Origin: an uncultured Eubacteriales bacterium
GTDB lineage: Bacteria > Bacillota > Clostridia > Christensenellales > Aristaeellaceae
Reading direction: 5' to 3'
Assembly (NCBI GenBank): GCA_902765395.1
Contig: CACWZP010000004.1
Coordinates: 1-64,000 of the forward strand
DNA length: 64,000 bases
Position 1 is the stretch's first letter. Every line of letters starts with the position of its first letter. Under the pieces are notes generated by a model. It did not search any database. It was not told where the DNA came from and worked only from the letters and a program-made list of their open reading frames with translations. This document shows, in pieces, positions 7,559-50,067 of this stretch. A program made the position numbers and the translations under genes.

Positions 7559-7635
7559 AAAGATCCTTCGCTTCGCACAGCATGACACCCCTGCAAATGC
7601 AGTCTGTGTCATCCTGAGCGAAGCGAAGGATCTTT
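7559..7635. repeat. 77-bp MITE-like element with 30-bp inverted ends
   Basis: Arms at 7559-7588 and 7606-7635 match in 28 of 30 positions when one is reversed, for example AAAGATCCTTCGCTTCGC at the left arm. The loop is only 17 bases. It sits between two convergent genes (esterase and phosphodiesterase) and could act as a bidirectional terminator. A diverged relative occurs at 38086-38135. Confidence 0.85.
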
Positions 7636-7675
7636 CACTTTCCCTGAAACCCGTGCTCGCGAAGTCTCCCGGGCG

Positions 7676-45790: not shown

Positions 45791-46761
45791 AGGCTCCTCA
45801 GATCCTTTCCGGTGAACGAAATTTTCCCGCAGGCTGACCGGTCCAGCAGCCGCGATGCCACCCGCTCGCCGTAGCGCTCCTTCAGCTCCACCGGCGTCAG
45901 GTTCGTGGCAATCACAGTGTGCCGCCGGGCCGCGCCGCGCTCGTTCAGCAGCGTAAACAGGTATTCCACGGTGATGTTGCGCATCATGGGCTCGGTGCCC
46001 AGGTCGTCGATCAGCAAAAGCGGCGCCTCGATCAGCGACGAAAAGCCCGCGAAGTCCCCGTCGTTGCCCACGTGCTGCTGGCGCATGGCCTCGAACATGC
46101 GGAAGGCGGTGATGCGCACGGCGGAGCCGCCCCGCTCGGTCACCCGCTCGAAGATGCAGTTCAGAAGGAACGTCTTGCCCAGGCCGCCCGGGCCGGTGAG
46201 CAACAGATTGCGGTACTTGGTGTTGGGAAAGGCGTTTGCATAGTCCTCACAGACTTGTCGGGCCTTAAGCGTTCGTGCTCTCTGACCATCATCCTCAGGG
46301 ATGCGATTTTCATCAAAGGCGTCGAAGTTCTGCTCCTTCACGCCGGCCATGCTGCCGTCCTCGTGCAGGCGCAGCCGCAGCCTCGCCTCGAAGCAGTCGC
46401 AGAAGCGGGACGGCGCGTCGCCCACATAGCCGGTGTCCCGGCACTTATCGCAGCGGTACCTGGGCTCCAGCTGGTCCACCGGGAAGCCGTTTAACGCCAA
46501 CAGCTCGCGGATCCGGGCGTTGTTGGCCTGGCCGCGCCGCTTCATCTCCGCCGCCAGCGCGGCGCGCTGCTCGGCCCCCTGCTGGGTGAGTATGCTGCGC
46601 ATGGCATCCAGTGCCAGGCCGGCGTTGTCCGCGCGCAGGCGGGCGATCTCCGGGGCCTTCCCGAAGGCCGCGTCGGTGCGCCGGCGCAGGTCGGCCTCGT
46701 TCTCGGCGCGCCGCTGGGCGTATTCCTCCAGCAGGGCGCGGATGTGTTCGGAACGGGTCAT
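45787..46761 (-). CDS. DnaI/DnaC-like helicase loader ATPase
   Basis: The 324-residue AAA+ protein has an N-terminal coiled segment, a four-Cys-like site (CDKCRDTGYVG, then CDCFEAR) and an ATPase core: Walker A LTGPGGLGKTFLLNCI, Walker B APLLLIDDLGTEP, sensor HTVIATNLTP, and an arginine finger region ERVASRLLDRSACG. This matches the DnaI/DnaC family that loads the replicative helicase. It overlaps the DnaD-domain gene by four bases, the usual partner in Clostridia. Confidence 0.92.
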   Translation of the reverse strand: MTRSEHIRALLEEYAQRRAENEADLRRRTDAAFGKAPEIARLRADNAGLALDAMRSILTQQGAEQRAALAAEMKRRGQANNARIRELLALNGFPVDQLEPRYRCDKCRDTGYVGDAPSRFCDCFEARLRLRLHEDGSMAGVKEQNFDAFDENRIPEDDGQRARTLKARQVCEDYANAFPNTKYRNLLLTGPGGLGKTFLLNCIFERVTERGGSAVRITAFRMFEAMRQQHVGNDGDFAGFSSLIEAPLLLIDDLGTEPMMRNITVEYLFTLLNERGAARRHTVIATNLTPVELKERYGERVASRLLDRSACGKISFTGKDLRSL

Positions 46762-48233
46762 TCCTCTTCGCCTCCCTCGCCATATTTATCCAAATCAATA
46801 TAGAAGTCGTCGCCAAAGTCCTCTTCCTTGTACTCCCGCTGGCTGTACTCCAGCGCGGGATTGGCGGGCGGCGTCCCGCCCTGGCCGGAGGACTTGCGGT
46901 CGGACTTGTGGGCCTTCCGCCATCTCTCGGCCTCTTCCACGGTCTTCACACCCGCGGCCTCCCACTCGCCAAGCAGCGCGTCCATCTTCTCCAGGGGCGG
47001 GAACTGCCCCTTCACGCAGGCTGCCGCGAAGGCGATCAGCGCCGCATCGTGCTTCGCCCGCCAGCCGTCGTAGAGGGCCAGGTCGCCCATGTTGGGGCGC
47101 TTCTCAGAGCCGGCGGCCTCCAGCAGCGCGGCGACGGCCTCGGCCTTCCTGCGCATATCGTCCACATAGGCCCGGGCCGCTTCGCCGGTGTAGACGCCCG
47201 CCTCCGCCCAGCGGGACAGCAGCTTCTCCACGTCCTCGAACCGGGTCTTCTTCCGCTCGTGGCAGCGCGCCGCCGCCAGCTGGATGGCCTCCCTGTCAAA
47301 GCCGCCCCGGCGCAGCGCCGCATAGCGCTTCAACACCTCCGGCGTGGGCTTGGCCTGGGGGGAATCCAGCTCCTTCAATGCCTCGGACAAATCGTCCCAG
47401 AAGGCCTGGTCGTCGTCCAGCCTGTTCTTCAGGATGGAGTCCAGGTAGCCGAAGGAGGGCGTGCGGGCCTTGGTGGTCTCGCCGCAGGCCTCCAGAATCT
47501 GCTCTTCGGTGTAGTTCCACTCCCCCGTCCAGCGCTTCACGCAGGCCAGCTCGTCCAGCGTGGGCTTGCGGCGCAGGGAAAAGCGCTTCAGCACCGCCTG
47601 GGCCACGGCGTTGACCCCCTCCTGCTCGGCGATGGCCCGCTCCACGTCCTCCAGCGTCCGGCAGCCCTCGTCGGCCCATTTCGCCGCCAGTTTGTCCATC
47701 CGCTTGAATACGCTTTCGGGGCTTGGCACGCTATCCCTGCTGCGGGAGGTGGCGATGCCGTATTCCACCAGCCTCACCACCGCGGCCTCGTCCAGCCCCA
47801 GCACGTTCAGCCAGTCGTTGGCGGTGCGGTACTCGTGGCTCTCGATCACCTTCTCGCCGAACAGCGACTGCAGCGAGGCGTTGAAGTCCCGGTAGCGATA
47901 GTAATCCCGCTCCATGGGGTTGAGGGCCGCCGGGCTGTCCGCCCGCAGGGGCAGCAGCTCATAGGTGGGCGGCCGGTCGGTGAGCCGGCGCACCAGGCCC
48001 CGCTGCTCCCAGTAGGCGAAGGCCTGGAACACCGTGTCCTCCTCCATGCGCAGGGTGAGGGCGATCTGCTGCAGGCTGTCGCCCAGCTCCGGGTGCAGCG
48101 CCAGCACCCGGGTATACAGGTACACGCGCAAAAACGCCTCCGGCGCCGTGGGCAGGTATTCCAGCAGGAACAGGTTCTCGATGGGCGTGGAATCGAACAT
48201 CGCCGCGCCCTCGGCAAAGCTGAATGTGGACAT
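46758..48233 (-). CDS. DnaD/DnaB-domain replication protein
   Basis: The 491-residue protein contains an N-terminal winged-helix region (LRMEEDTVFQAFAYWEQRGL) and C-terminal DnaD-type helical domains with the YxxxIL-like signature (LDELACVKRWTGEWNYTEEQ; TKARTPSFGYLDSIL). An acidic tail follows. DnaD proteins remodel DNA at origin and restart sites and recruit the helicase loader, which fits the overlap with the dnaI-like gene. ATG 48233 has AGAGGT six bases upstream; an upstream GTG/ATG frame is less likely. The promoter is at 48288-48316. Confidence 0.9.
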   Translation of the reverse strand: MSTFSFAEGAAMFDSTPIENLFLLEYLPTAPEAFLRVYLYTRVLALHPELGDSLQQIALTLRMEEDTVFQAFAYWEQRGLVRRLTDRPPTYELLPLRADSPAALNPMERDYYRYRDFNASLQSLFGEKVIESHEYRTANDWLNVLGLDEAAVVRLVEYGIATSRSRDSVPSPESVFKRMDKLAAKWADEGCRTLEDVERAIAEQEGVNAVAQAVLKRFSLRRKPTLDELACVKRWTGEWNYTEEQILEACGETTKARTPSFGYLDSILKNRLDDDQAFWDDLSEALKELDSPQAKPTPEVLKRYAALRRGGFDREAIQLAAARCHERKKTRFEDVEKLLSRWAEAGVYTGEAARAYVDDMRRKAEAVAALLEAAGSEKRPNMGDLALYDGWRAKHDAALIAFAAACVKGQFPPLEKMDALLGEWEAAGVKTVEEAERWRKAHKSDRKSSGQGGTPPANPALEYSQREYKEEDFGDDFYIDLDKYGEGGEEE

Positions 48234-48287
48234 GGACGTACCTCTTGGGGACAGGCCCCCGCAGTTGTGCATAAATTTCTATATTAT

Positions 48288-48316: not shown

Positions 48317-48422
48317 ACACATTTCGAGTGCAGAGACAATGACGCGGCCACCGCCTTCATCCGAGCTCAGTATTCTTAACTCTCAACTCTAAACTCTTGT
48401 ATTTGTTTTTACCCCCTCACAC

Positions 48423-48451
48423 TTGACAATCGCCCGAACCCATGCTATCAT
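48423..48451 (+). promoter_or_regulatory. Promoter of the tyrosine T-box operon
   Basis: A perfect TTGACA (48423-48428) and TATCAT (48446-48451) have a 17-bp spacer; the transcript should begin near 48458, just ahead of the T-box leader. Confidence 0.85.
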
Positions 48452-48474
48452 CAACCTACAGCAAAACACACGCG

Positions 48475-48855
48475 ATGATGGGAACAAGTAGGCCGCGCAA
48501 GTCCGGATCAAGAGAGCCCCCGGTGGGTGCAAGGGAGCGAAGGCGCGCGGGCGAATACATCCCGGAGCAGGCGGTTGAAGCGAATACCAATTTCAATCCA
48601 TAGGTTTGCAGAGCATGTAAGCGCATTTTTCGTCATAGCAAGGCGAAGGCTCGCTGGCGGCAAGTCAAGAGACTTCAACGCAGATATGGCGGAAAAGGCG
48701 CCACAGGATCGCAAACATCATGGGTTGAAATCGGTATCAAGTAGGCCGTCCGGGCGCGCCCGTAACAGCGCACGCGAGGCCGCGATGTTCATCGCGGCGA
48801 ACGGAAGTGGTACCGCGATACGCATCGCCTTCCCCTGTGGGAAGGCGCATTTTTT
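48475..48855 (+). promoter_or_regulatory. T-box leader with UAC (Tyr) specifier
   Basis: T-box leaders sense uncharged tRNA and control the downstream terminator. Stem I begins with the AGUA S-turn motif before GGCCGCGC, pairs with GCGCGGGC, and has the distal AGAGAG bulge and GGGTGCAAGG loop. The 3' side reads GAA-UAC-A, so the specifier triplet is UAC (48556-48558), a tyrosine codon. The T-box GGAAGTGGTACCGCG (48803-48817) has UGGU, which suits tRNA-Tyr's A discriminator. A terminator stem GCCTTCCC / GGGAAGGC with TTTTTT ends the leader (48827-48855). A 154-bp element interrupts the linker between stem I and stem II. Confidence 0.92.
48584..48737. mobile_element. MITE-like hairpin inserted in the T-box leader
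   Basis: The ends ATACCAATTTCAATCCATA and the complement of ...ATGGGTTGAAATCGGTAT pair over about 27 bp with few mismatches. The internal sequence contains GAAGGCTCGCTGGCGG and other small stems and has no open frame. It sits exactly between T-box stem I and the second AAGTAGG motif. Typical T-box linkers are much shorter, so I read it as an insertion. No clear target duplication is visible. Confidence 0.75.
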
Positions 48856-48876
48856 ATCTGTCAGGGGGAATCCATC

Positions 48877-50067
48877 ATGCAATTCACCGAGGAGAAGTTC
48901 GCCAGGCACATGCGGCCCATCAACGGCAGCGCCATCCGCGAAATCTTCAAGCTGCTGGCCCGGCCGGGGATGATCTCCTTCGCCGGCGGCAATCCCAGCA
49001 ACACCGCGCTGGAGCCGGAGGTGATCTCCGAGCTGTCGGGCAAGGTGCTTTCGCAGTACGGCACCACGCTCCTGCAGTACGGCGCCACGGACGGCTTCGG
49101 CCCGTTCCGCGAGAGCGCGGCGGCGTTTCTGAACACCGAGGGCGTGAAGTGCGACGCCAGCCAGGTGCTGCCCGTTCAGGGCGGGAGCCAGGCCTTTGAC
49201 CTGCTTTTGAAGGCGCTGGTCGACCCCGGCGACGTGGTGCTTTGCGAGAGCCCCACGTTCCTGGGCGCCATCCAGGCCATGCGGGAGTACAACGCCAGGC
49301 TCGTCGCCATGCCCACGGACGAAAACGGCGTGATCGTCGAGGCGGCGGAGGCGCTGATCAAAGAGCACCATCCGAAGCTGATGTACGTGATCCCCACCTT
49401 CCAGAACCCCACCGGCATCACCCTGTCGCTGGAGCGCAGGAAGGCGCTGGCGGCGCTGGCCAGCCAGTACGGCGTGGTGATCGCCGAGGACGACCCCTAC
49501 CGCGACTTGCGCTATTCCGGCGAGCCCCTGCCGCCGATCCAGTCCTTCGACGAGGAGGGCTGGGTGGTGTACATGTCGTCCTTCTCCAAATACATCGCCC
49601 CGGGCATGCGCCTGGGCGCGGCGGCGGTCACCAACCCGCCGCTGCTGCGCAAGATGGTCATCGGCAAGCAGTCGGCCGACGTGCACTCGCCGCTGCTCAA
49701 CCAAGCCATCGTGGATGCCTACCTGCGGGCGGGCCTGATGCCGGCGCACCTCGCGCGCATCTGCGGCGACTATAAGAAGCAGCTGGACGCCATGCTGGAC
49801 GGCTTCAAGTGTTTCCCCGCCGGCACGAAGCACACCCTGCCCCAGGGCGGCCTGTTCGTCTGGTCGGAGCTCCCCGAGGGCGTGGACGGCCTGAAGGCCT
49901 TCGAGGCCGCGGTGGAGGCCGGCGTGGCCTTCGTCCCCGGCACCCACTTCTATCCCGACGGCGGCCACCTGAACACCCTGCGCCTGAACTTCTCCATGTG
50001 CGACATCCCCACCATCGAGGAGGGCATGAGGCGACTGGGGAAAGTCATCTCTGAAATGAGGAGTTAG
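48877..50067 (+). CDS. PLP-dependent aminotransferase (fold type I), probably aromatic
   Basis: The 396-residue enzyme belongs to the LysN/aromatic aminotransferase group. Landmarks are ISFAGGNPSNTALEPEV, the Asn-Pro-Thr-Gly motif in VIPTFQNPTGITLS, EDDPYRDLRY, the PLP-binding Lys in SSFSKYIAPGMRLG, and the C-terminal Arg in LRLNFS. The gene is directly after a tyrosine T-box and ahead of tyrS, so a role in tyrosine (aromatic) biosynthesis is the best inference; 2-aminoadipate or broad specificity cannot be excluded. AGGGGGA precedes the ATG. Confidence 0.88.
   Translation: MQFTEEKFARHMRPINGSAIREIFKLLARPGMISFAGGNPSNTALEPEVISELSGKVLSQYGTTLLQYGATDGFGPFRESAAAFLNTEGVKCDASQVLPVQGGSQAFDLLLKALVDPGDVVLCESPTFLGAIQAMREYNARLVAMPTDENGVIVEAAEALIKEHHPKLMYVIPTFQNPTGITLSLERRKALAALASQYGVVIAEDDPYRDLRYSGEPLPPIQSFDEEGWVVYMSSFSKYIAPGMRLGAAAVTNPPLLRKMVIGKQSADVHSPLLNQAIVDAYLRAGLMPAHLARICGDYKKQLDAMLDGFKCFPAGTKHTLPQGGLFVWSELPEGVDGLKAFEAAVEAGVAFVPGTHFYPDGGHLNTLRLNFSMCDIPTIEEGMRRLGKVISEMRS

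Follow-up and report, generated by a model that had tools for sequence, protein, structure and literature searches.

A MITE-like hairpin element inserted in Stem II of a predicted tyrosine T-box leader

The window analyzed here, a 64,000-nt stretch of DNA from a rumen bacterium, contains an operon in which a gene encoding a PLP-dependent aminotransferase is followed by tyrS, encoding tyrosyl-tRNA synthetase, and is preceded by a long leader (Table 1). The aminotransferase is of the MocR/PdxR catalytic type; its best NCBIfam match is to a PdxR-type model with a score of 231 bits, below that model's cut-off of 320. A gene encoding a DnaD-domain protein (TIGR01446) lies divergent from this operon, at 46758–48272 on the minus strand. 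The initial annotation of the leader had described a tyrosine T-box beginning at position 48475, with a Stem I, a UAC specifier, a bulge that fits tRNA-Tyr, and a terminator. A cmscan search of positions 48380–48900 bears this description out, as the Rfam T-box model RF00230 matches with 74.3 bits (E 2.6e-16) over all 219 of its positions (1–219), leaves 157 nt in the Stem II loop unmodelled, and places the 5′ end a few bases earlier than annotated, at 48466. Stem I includes both the specifier and an AGAGA T-loop, the two downstream genes match the specifier UAC, and, at the sequence level, an antiterminator with a UGGN bulge overlaps an intrinsic terminator. We take the discriminator base of tRNA-Tyr to be A, so that the bulge UGGU would pair with the ACCA end of tRNA-Tyr. 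The promoter-like and terminator-like sites are pattern matches, of which 0.4–0.5 each are expected by chance.

Table 1. Features of the leader and of the genes that follow it (positions in the window)
Feature	Position	Strand	Basis and details
Promoter-like site TTGACA-17-TATCAT	48423–48451	+	Consensus scan (pattern match only)
T-box leader including the insert	48466–48835	+	cmscan, RF00230
Stem I	48472–48568	+	Rfam alignment; T-loop AGAGA at 48511–48515; motif names as in passages of PMC7583486
Specifier UAC (Tyr)	48556–48558	+	Sequence and Rfam alignment
Stem II, 5′ strand	48571–48583	+	Includes S-turn GAA at 48577–48579 and the left flank of the insert
MITE-like inserted element, 154 nt	48584–48737	+	Family model R1, fold, and absence from 23 of 25 orthologous leaders
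Stem II, 3′ strand	48738–48749	+	Includes S-turn AGUA at 48740–48743
Stem IIA-type hairpin CGGGCG/CGCCCG	48751–48762	+	Rfam alignment; name by analogy with passages of PMC7583486
Stem III hairpin	48779–48798	+	Sequence and Rfam alignment
Antiterminator	48804–48832	+	Rfam alignment; T-box bulge UGGU at 48808–48811
Terminator-like hairpin followed by a T run	48826–48847	+	Pattern match; overlaps the antiterminator
PLP-dependent aminotransferase, 396 aa	48877–50067	+	ORF; first gene past the leader
tyrS, tyrosyl-tRNA synthetase, 411 aa	50235–51470	+	TIGR00234, 415 bits (cut-off 113.8)

The score of the leader does not reach the curated Rfam cut-off of 93 bits, and a default scan of the window therefore returns no T-box entry. 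This gathering score is a detection threshold rather than a biological feature. Among the 23 orthologous leaders of the genus that lack the insert described below, 11 score above the cut-off (the highest being G027 with 114.4, G009 with 112.8, G023 with 109.7, and G010 and G001 with 100.2 bits each) and 12 score below it (the lowest being G007 with 67.1 bits); a score under the cut-off is thus usual for the tyrosine leader in this genus.

The insert is exactly 154 bp long and occupies the apical loop of Stem II. The initial annotation had recognized a 154-bp inverted-repeat insertion between Stem I and the second AAGTAGG motif; its length and its inverted-repeat character hold, and its placement is right in broad terms but is given more exactly as the interior of Stem II, where it separates the two halves of the S-turn. 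Both halves, GAA and AGUA, are retained around the insert. In structures of other T-boxes, the S-turn braces the codon–anticodon duplex, according to passages of a T-box review (PMC7583486). The stretch 48580–48740 folds into one hairpin of −65 kcal/mol, compared with a mean of −37.2 kcal/mol for shuffled sequences (z −8.0), and none of 200 shuffles is as stable. The ends of the insert pair almost perfectly (ATACCaATTTCAA..CCAT with ATGGGTTGAAATCgGTAT). The mobile unit is probably TAC..GTA at 48585–48736, flanked by GAA (48582–48584) and TCA (48737–48739), which together form a degenerate TNA duplication. A premature terminator within the element was also considered and rejected, as a terminator scan of 48360–48900 yields the T-box terminator only. 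The insert is thus a single long predicted hairpin in the apical loop of Stem II, and the leader keeps the sequence motifs of Stem I, the S-turn, and Stem III as well as those of the antiterminator and terminator.

Orthologous leaders were located by searching for the aminotransferase in 28 genomes of the genus, 25 of which have a match with at least 80% identity (one over 307 of 396 residues). The distance from the end of Stem I to the AGUAGG motif, measured by pattern in 24 leaders and by eye in the 25th (G003, L140; 16 nt), shows that the Stem II loop stretch is 16–29 nt long in 23 of the 25 leaders, compared with 171 nt in the window genome (G000) and 179 nt in its closest sister, G026, whose aminotransferase is 98% identical to that of the window; a long linker native to these leaders was rejected on these grounds. 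Among the 25, the insert is common to these two genomes only, and the nearest leaders that lack it belong to relatives with at most 92% aminotransferase identity. The two inserts differ in length by 8 nt in the apical part of the element, and, because these bases are present in most of the other copies in the alignment, an 8-nt deletion in the window copy is probable. We rejected an assembly artefact as the source of the insert given its presence in a second genome (G026; L025 and L054) with this difference in length. By parsimony, the insertion would date to an ancestor shared by the window genome and G026. The initial annotation had staked its insertion reading on short linkers in relatives and on recurrence of the inverted ends elsewhere in the genome. 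The first expectation is borne out by these leaders and the second by the dispersed copies described next, and the insertion reading is supported on both counts.

DNA searches detect the element at seven places in its own genome, including the window copy, and in 24 of the 28 genomes of the genus. A covariance model trained on 28 copies has matches in 27 of the 28 genomes, with at least 891 matches in total when the best 105 candidates per genome are scored; 24 of these are in the own genome, where they mark at least nine separate places, and 27 are in G026. The model, termed R1, scores the insert at 123.7 bits (E 4.6e-25), a copy that belongs to its training set. Because the model also matches the reverse strand of one and the same copy (in 22 fetched stretches, 34 matches correspond to 23 places and 11 are reverse-strand repeats), the match numbers exceed the number of copies by perhaps a third, and the 891 matches may represent about 600 copies. 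In a sample of the bacterial family, searched with stricter filters and with the own genus included, 63 of 150 genomes and 30 of 50 genera have a match, some of them with other ends. The element has no Rfam match at the gathering score in the 64,000-nt window.

The dispersed copies are mostly 158–162 nt long, compared with 154 nt in the T-box, and have paired ends (TACTAATCTCAATCTAAA in the window type) and, in most of the copies scored, a TNA duplication. We extracted both ends from 43 copies, anchored on ATAC and GTAT, and retained 39 after removing two with misplaced right ends, one double count, and one near-duplicate in the sister genome; the 39 include both T-box copies, which represent one insertion. 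A full TNA target duplication is present in 27 of the 39. The two bases immediately outside the anchors are identical in 30 of 39 copies, where 11.5 are expected from composition, and the left T and right A are present in 34 and 37 of 39, respectively. The flanks of the T-box copy, GAA and TCA, are degenerate relative to the TNA of the family. Copies with the same ends occur at unrelated genomic sites whose flanks, as read, give no sign of derivation from T-boxes. In three loci (L002, L004, and L094) copies lie, as judged by eye, directly after a terminator-like hairpin and T run, as a TNA target would allow. A window-type copy in opposite orientation (G002:C58:2691–2850, within L135, G002:C58:2203–3100) lies directly 3′ of the terminator of another T-box leader.

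In a partial sample, none of ten element sites in G000 has flanks that align to any of 12 element sites sampled in G026. At the locus in G026 corresponding to the G000:C1:102154 copy, the body of the element is absent and about 9–11 nt of one end remain. This locus was considered as a pre-insertion site and rejected, as the leftover end looks like loss by deletion. Copies of the element other than that in the T-box thus seem to turn over. The same hairpin core also occurs, as judged by eye, with other ends: TAGAGTGTGTTTCTAAA with an apparent TA duplication (L184, ~1500–1663; L193, ~392–555) and TTAAGGCAACACCGCACAAA (L192, ~1498–1660). One locus (L247, from G144:C76) contains at 393–568 a TAGAGTG-type element inside a window-type terminal repeat (ATACT/AATCTCAATCTAAA), and an ORF at 1025–2290, 457 bp downstream of the window-type end, encodes an ISL3-type transposase (PF01610, 5.2e-39). 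It is possible that this arrangement represents an autonomous relative of the window element; however, ISL3 elements have target duplications longer than TNA and the transposase is accordingly a lead only, and a search of 6 kb for a second window-type end near it, allowing three mismatches, found none. Taken together, the short length, terminal inverted repeats, target duplication, and many dispersed copies suggest that the insert is a small non-autonomous MITE-like mobile element of about 160 bp with TNA as its target.

The secondary structure of the element extends over its full length. RNAalifold predicts 56 pairs from 28 copies, of which 33 have changed on both sides yet are kept, and none of 500 shuffles reaches any of five measures of covariation; 95.8% of the cells are paired, compared with 38.5–48.3% after sliding by one to three columns. 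These controls are generous, as the structure and its test share one alignment of related copies. G-U cells number 192 and A-C cells 22; outside five pairs with a G-U majority, the corresponding numbers are 74 and 21. In all 35 copies examined, several of them close relatives, the strand transcribed in the T-box is the better-folding one, by a mean of 23 kcal/mol over its complement, which suggests that the structure is relevant in single-stranded form, either as RNA or as single-stranded DNA. Relative to the family majority, the window copy has six pairs changed on both sides that still pair, four that are broken, and five lost to deletion, and none of the broken pairs falls within columns 1–17 of the closing helix. 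Among the 28 aligned copies, only the two from T-box leaders carry a double change of U-A to C-G at columns 5/160.

Other T-box leaders of the genus also carry extra sequence. Among 408 RF00230 matches in the 28 genomes, 13 span at least 290 nt, including both tyrosine leaders (genes of the long leaders were named by visual inspection of the beginning of the following ORF). The element of the window is found in one leader type only among the 408 matches, the tyrosine leader of both sisters. The pheS leaders of G000 and G026 contain a different palindromic repeat in Stem III, with 136 nt of the Stem III loop left unmodelled in G026; this repeat has 43 matches in the window genome, on both strands, and the leader copy lies at 1685–1803 of L015 (G000:C18). 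A repeat of the same type is found in the Stem II loop, the position of the window element, in the asparagine-synthase leaders of G015 (L126) and G009 (L124), the latter being a weak match of 27 bits in which the repeat was placed by motif; the G015 leader has a further hairpin array in its terminator region. The window itself contains a copy of this pheS-type repeat at 7559–7636, with 74% identity to the G015 copy. A set of three small hairpins lies between Stem IIA and the antiterminator in the asparagine-synthase leaders of G000, G003, and G018 and is absent from the sister G026; this insert is about 85 nt long in G000:C35 (L022, 1698–1782), and in a BLAST search against the fetched loci its only full-length homologue was that in the same T-box of G003. 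In G001, Stem III of the metS leader contains 103 unmodelled nt, part of which is a repeat also present in L055 (97.9% identity over 47 nt), and the alaS leaders of G003 and G013 and one leader in G024 are long without an identified repeat. All identified dispersed repeats in T-box leaders are in the Stem II or Stem III region, a pattern that is biased given that leaders hit in Stem I or the antiterminator may escape recognition as T-boxes.

The initial annotation had supposed that the hairpin of the insert keeps the flanking stems in place. We constrained the leader to its 43 standard Rfam pairs and used ViennaRNA to calculate the energy needed to form them with different inserts. The cost is 22.1 kcal/mol with the element, 23.4 with the flanks joined (which is not the true ancestral site), 22.4 with the reverse complement, and 22.3 ± 1.1 with 34 other copies of the family, one of which is the T-box copy of the sister. 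With 110 dinucleotide shuffles it rises to 27.7 ± 2.5 (minimum 23.4), and none of the shuffles is as low as the natural insert. The mean pair probability of Stem II is 0.39 with the element, 0.09 with joined flanks, 0.23 with the reverse complement, 0.37 with the family copies, and 0.001 with the shuffles. In this model, Stem II is unharmed, and may be helped, by a self-folding insert, and a non-palindromic insert of equal composition would harm it. The native pairs of Stem I have a mean probability of 0.04–0.08 with all variants of the insert, and of about 0.07 both with the natural insert and without it, and those of the 3′ stems 0.002 with or without it and 0.02 with shuffles; as the calculation leaves out the tRNA and non-standard pairs, these values are low irrespective of the insert, and the test speaks for Stem II only. 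The calculation thus supports the supposition about the flanking stems for Stem II alone.

Based on these observations, we consider it very probable that a tyrosine-specific terminating T-box took, in Stem II, an insertion of a MITE-like element with TNA as its target, which would leave the tRNA-binding surfaces free and read-through in place. In the transcript, the element would lengthen Stem II into a protruding hairpin away from the surfaces that contact tRNA, and uncharged tRNA-Tyr would still promote read-through into the aminotransferase and tyrS genes. The insertion could have been kept because it folds on itself, and the apical loops of Stem II and Stem III may be places that tolerate such inserts.

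Comparison of the two sisters is consistent with this interpretation and also bears on a second one, in which the element, once landed, became a selected part of the switch by, for example, nucleating Stem II or delaying the antiterminator after Stem I. The T-box core differs at 1 of 118 and 3 of 98 positions (4/216) and the element at 0 of 154, with one 8-nt gap; in the aminotransferase gene, 47 of 1188 positions and 24 of 211 fourfold sites are substituted, and in the pheS-leader repeat 6 of 119. The spacer upstream of the leader (18/98, with 92 gap columns) is too badly aligned to use. The divergence of the element is lower than that of the fourfold sites (Fisher p 1.3e-6) and of the pheS-leader repeat (p 0.006), as expected if it had been recruited; the gain in the pair probability of Stem II over joined flanks and the U-A to C-G double change, kept in the two T-box copies alone, point in the same direction. 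However, the element is not significantly more conserved than the surrounding T-box (p 0.14), and its low divergence may be a local property, as aligned T-box leaders of the two sisters range from 92.4% to 100% identity and two others are 100% identical. In addition, the window copy lacks 8 nt present in that of the sister, and the comparison rests on one genome pair. The divergence between the sisters is in keeping with a working leader and compatible with selection on the insert, though no proof of it; we regard recruitment of the element as possible but doubtful.

That the insertion broke the T-box, which is now decaying, is improbable. The insert is large, the score is below the Rfam cut-off, and the whole leader has a minimum-energy fold other than that of a T-box; however, Stem I is missing from the unconstrained fold even when the insert is removed, scores under the cut-off are shared by many orthologues that lack the insert, all core motifs are retained, and the core has far fewer substitutions (4/216) than the neighbouring fourfold sites (24/211). 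Least probable is that the long hairpin is an old native extension of the T-box, as five insert-free relatives with modestly longer loops of 26–29 nt (G010, G015, G020, G024, and G022) and the unexplained insertions noted in every T-box domain in passages of a review (PMC7583486) might suggest, since the hairpin is absent from 23 of 25 orthologues and members of its sequence family, with identical ends, are scattered over unrelated sites.

Returning to the favoured reading of an inserted T-box that would still function, the leader resembles RF00230 T-boxes in its Stem I, specifier, Stem II S-turn, Stem III, antiterminator with UGGN bulge, terminator, and position upstream of aminotransferase and tyrS genes, and differs from them in that a dispersed mobile hairpin fills the apical loop of Stem II. 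The nearest precedent that we found in the open-access literature comes from pneumococci, where a BOX element separates the two T-boxes of the trp operon leader; its authors think that this element folds independently and leaves regulation intact (PMC3049150). Both cases involve a mobile palindromic repeat in a T-box leader; in contrast to the BOX element, the insert here lies within a structural stem of a single T-box. Potential T-box motifs in BOX elements are mentioned in passages of a MITE review (PMC10969869). Beyond the BOX case, our search of the open-access literature, with subscription journals mostly outside its scope, recognized no mobile element inside a T-box stem. According to passages of the T-box review, every T-box domain has insertions whose structure and function are unknown, and Stem II is very diverse; the extra sequence in Stem II and Stem III reported here is similar to such lineage-specific insertions; unlike those, for which these passages name no origin, its source is a dispersed repeat (PMC7583486).

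The element itself is similar to bacterial MITEs, as described in passages of the MITE review, in being short, with inverted ends, a target duplication, many copies, and a stable hairpin when transcribed (PMC10969869). Set against this description are its covariation over the full length, the better folding of one strand in 35 of 35 copies, and the existence of related cores with different terminal repeats. A broader reading, which we put forward as speculation and consider somewhat less likely than the recruitment discussed above, is that of a mobile structured-RNA family in which one covarying core of ~160 nt, with one better-folding strand, moves under different terminal repeats (ATACTAATCTCA.. 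with TNA, TAGAGTGTGTTT.. with apparent TA, and TTAAGGCAACACCGC..) and repeatedly arms regulatory RNAs of its hosts, having been recruited in the tyrosine T-box as a stabilising extension of Stem II.

We conclude that the system is best described as an ordinary T-box with a mobile hairpin grafted onto Stem II, and that the family of elements, with one core and different ends, may be the more novel part. The tyrosine leader provides a riboswitch appendage for which the donor family is identified, the insertion is placed on a tree against 23 insert-free orthologues, and parallel cases exist in the same genus. Apical loops may accept self-folding mobile hairpins because the core is left undisturbed. 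The case suggests a source of some of the puzzling extra pieces in T-boxes, and the origin of riboswitch appendages thereby becomes testable.
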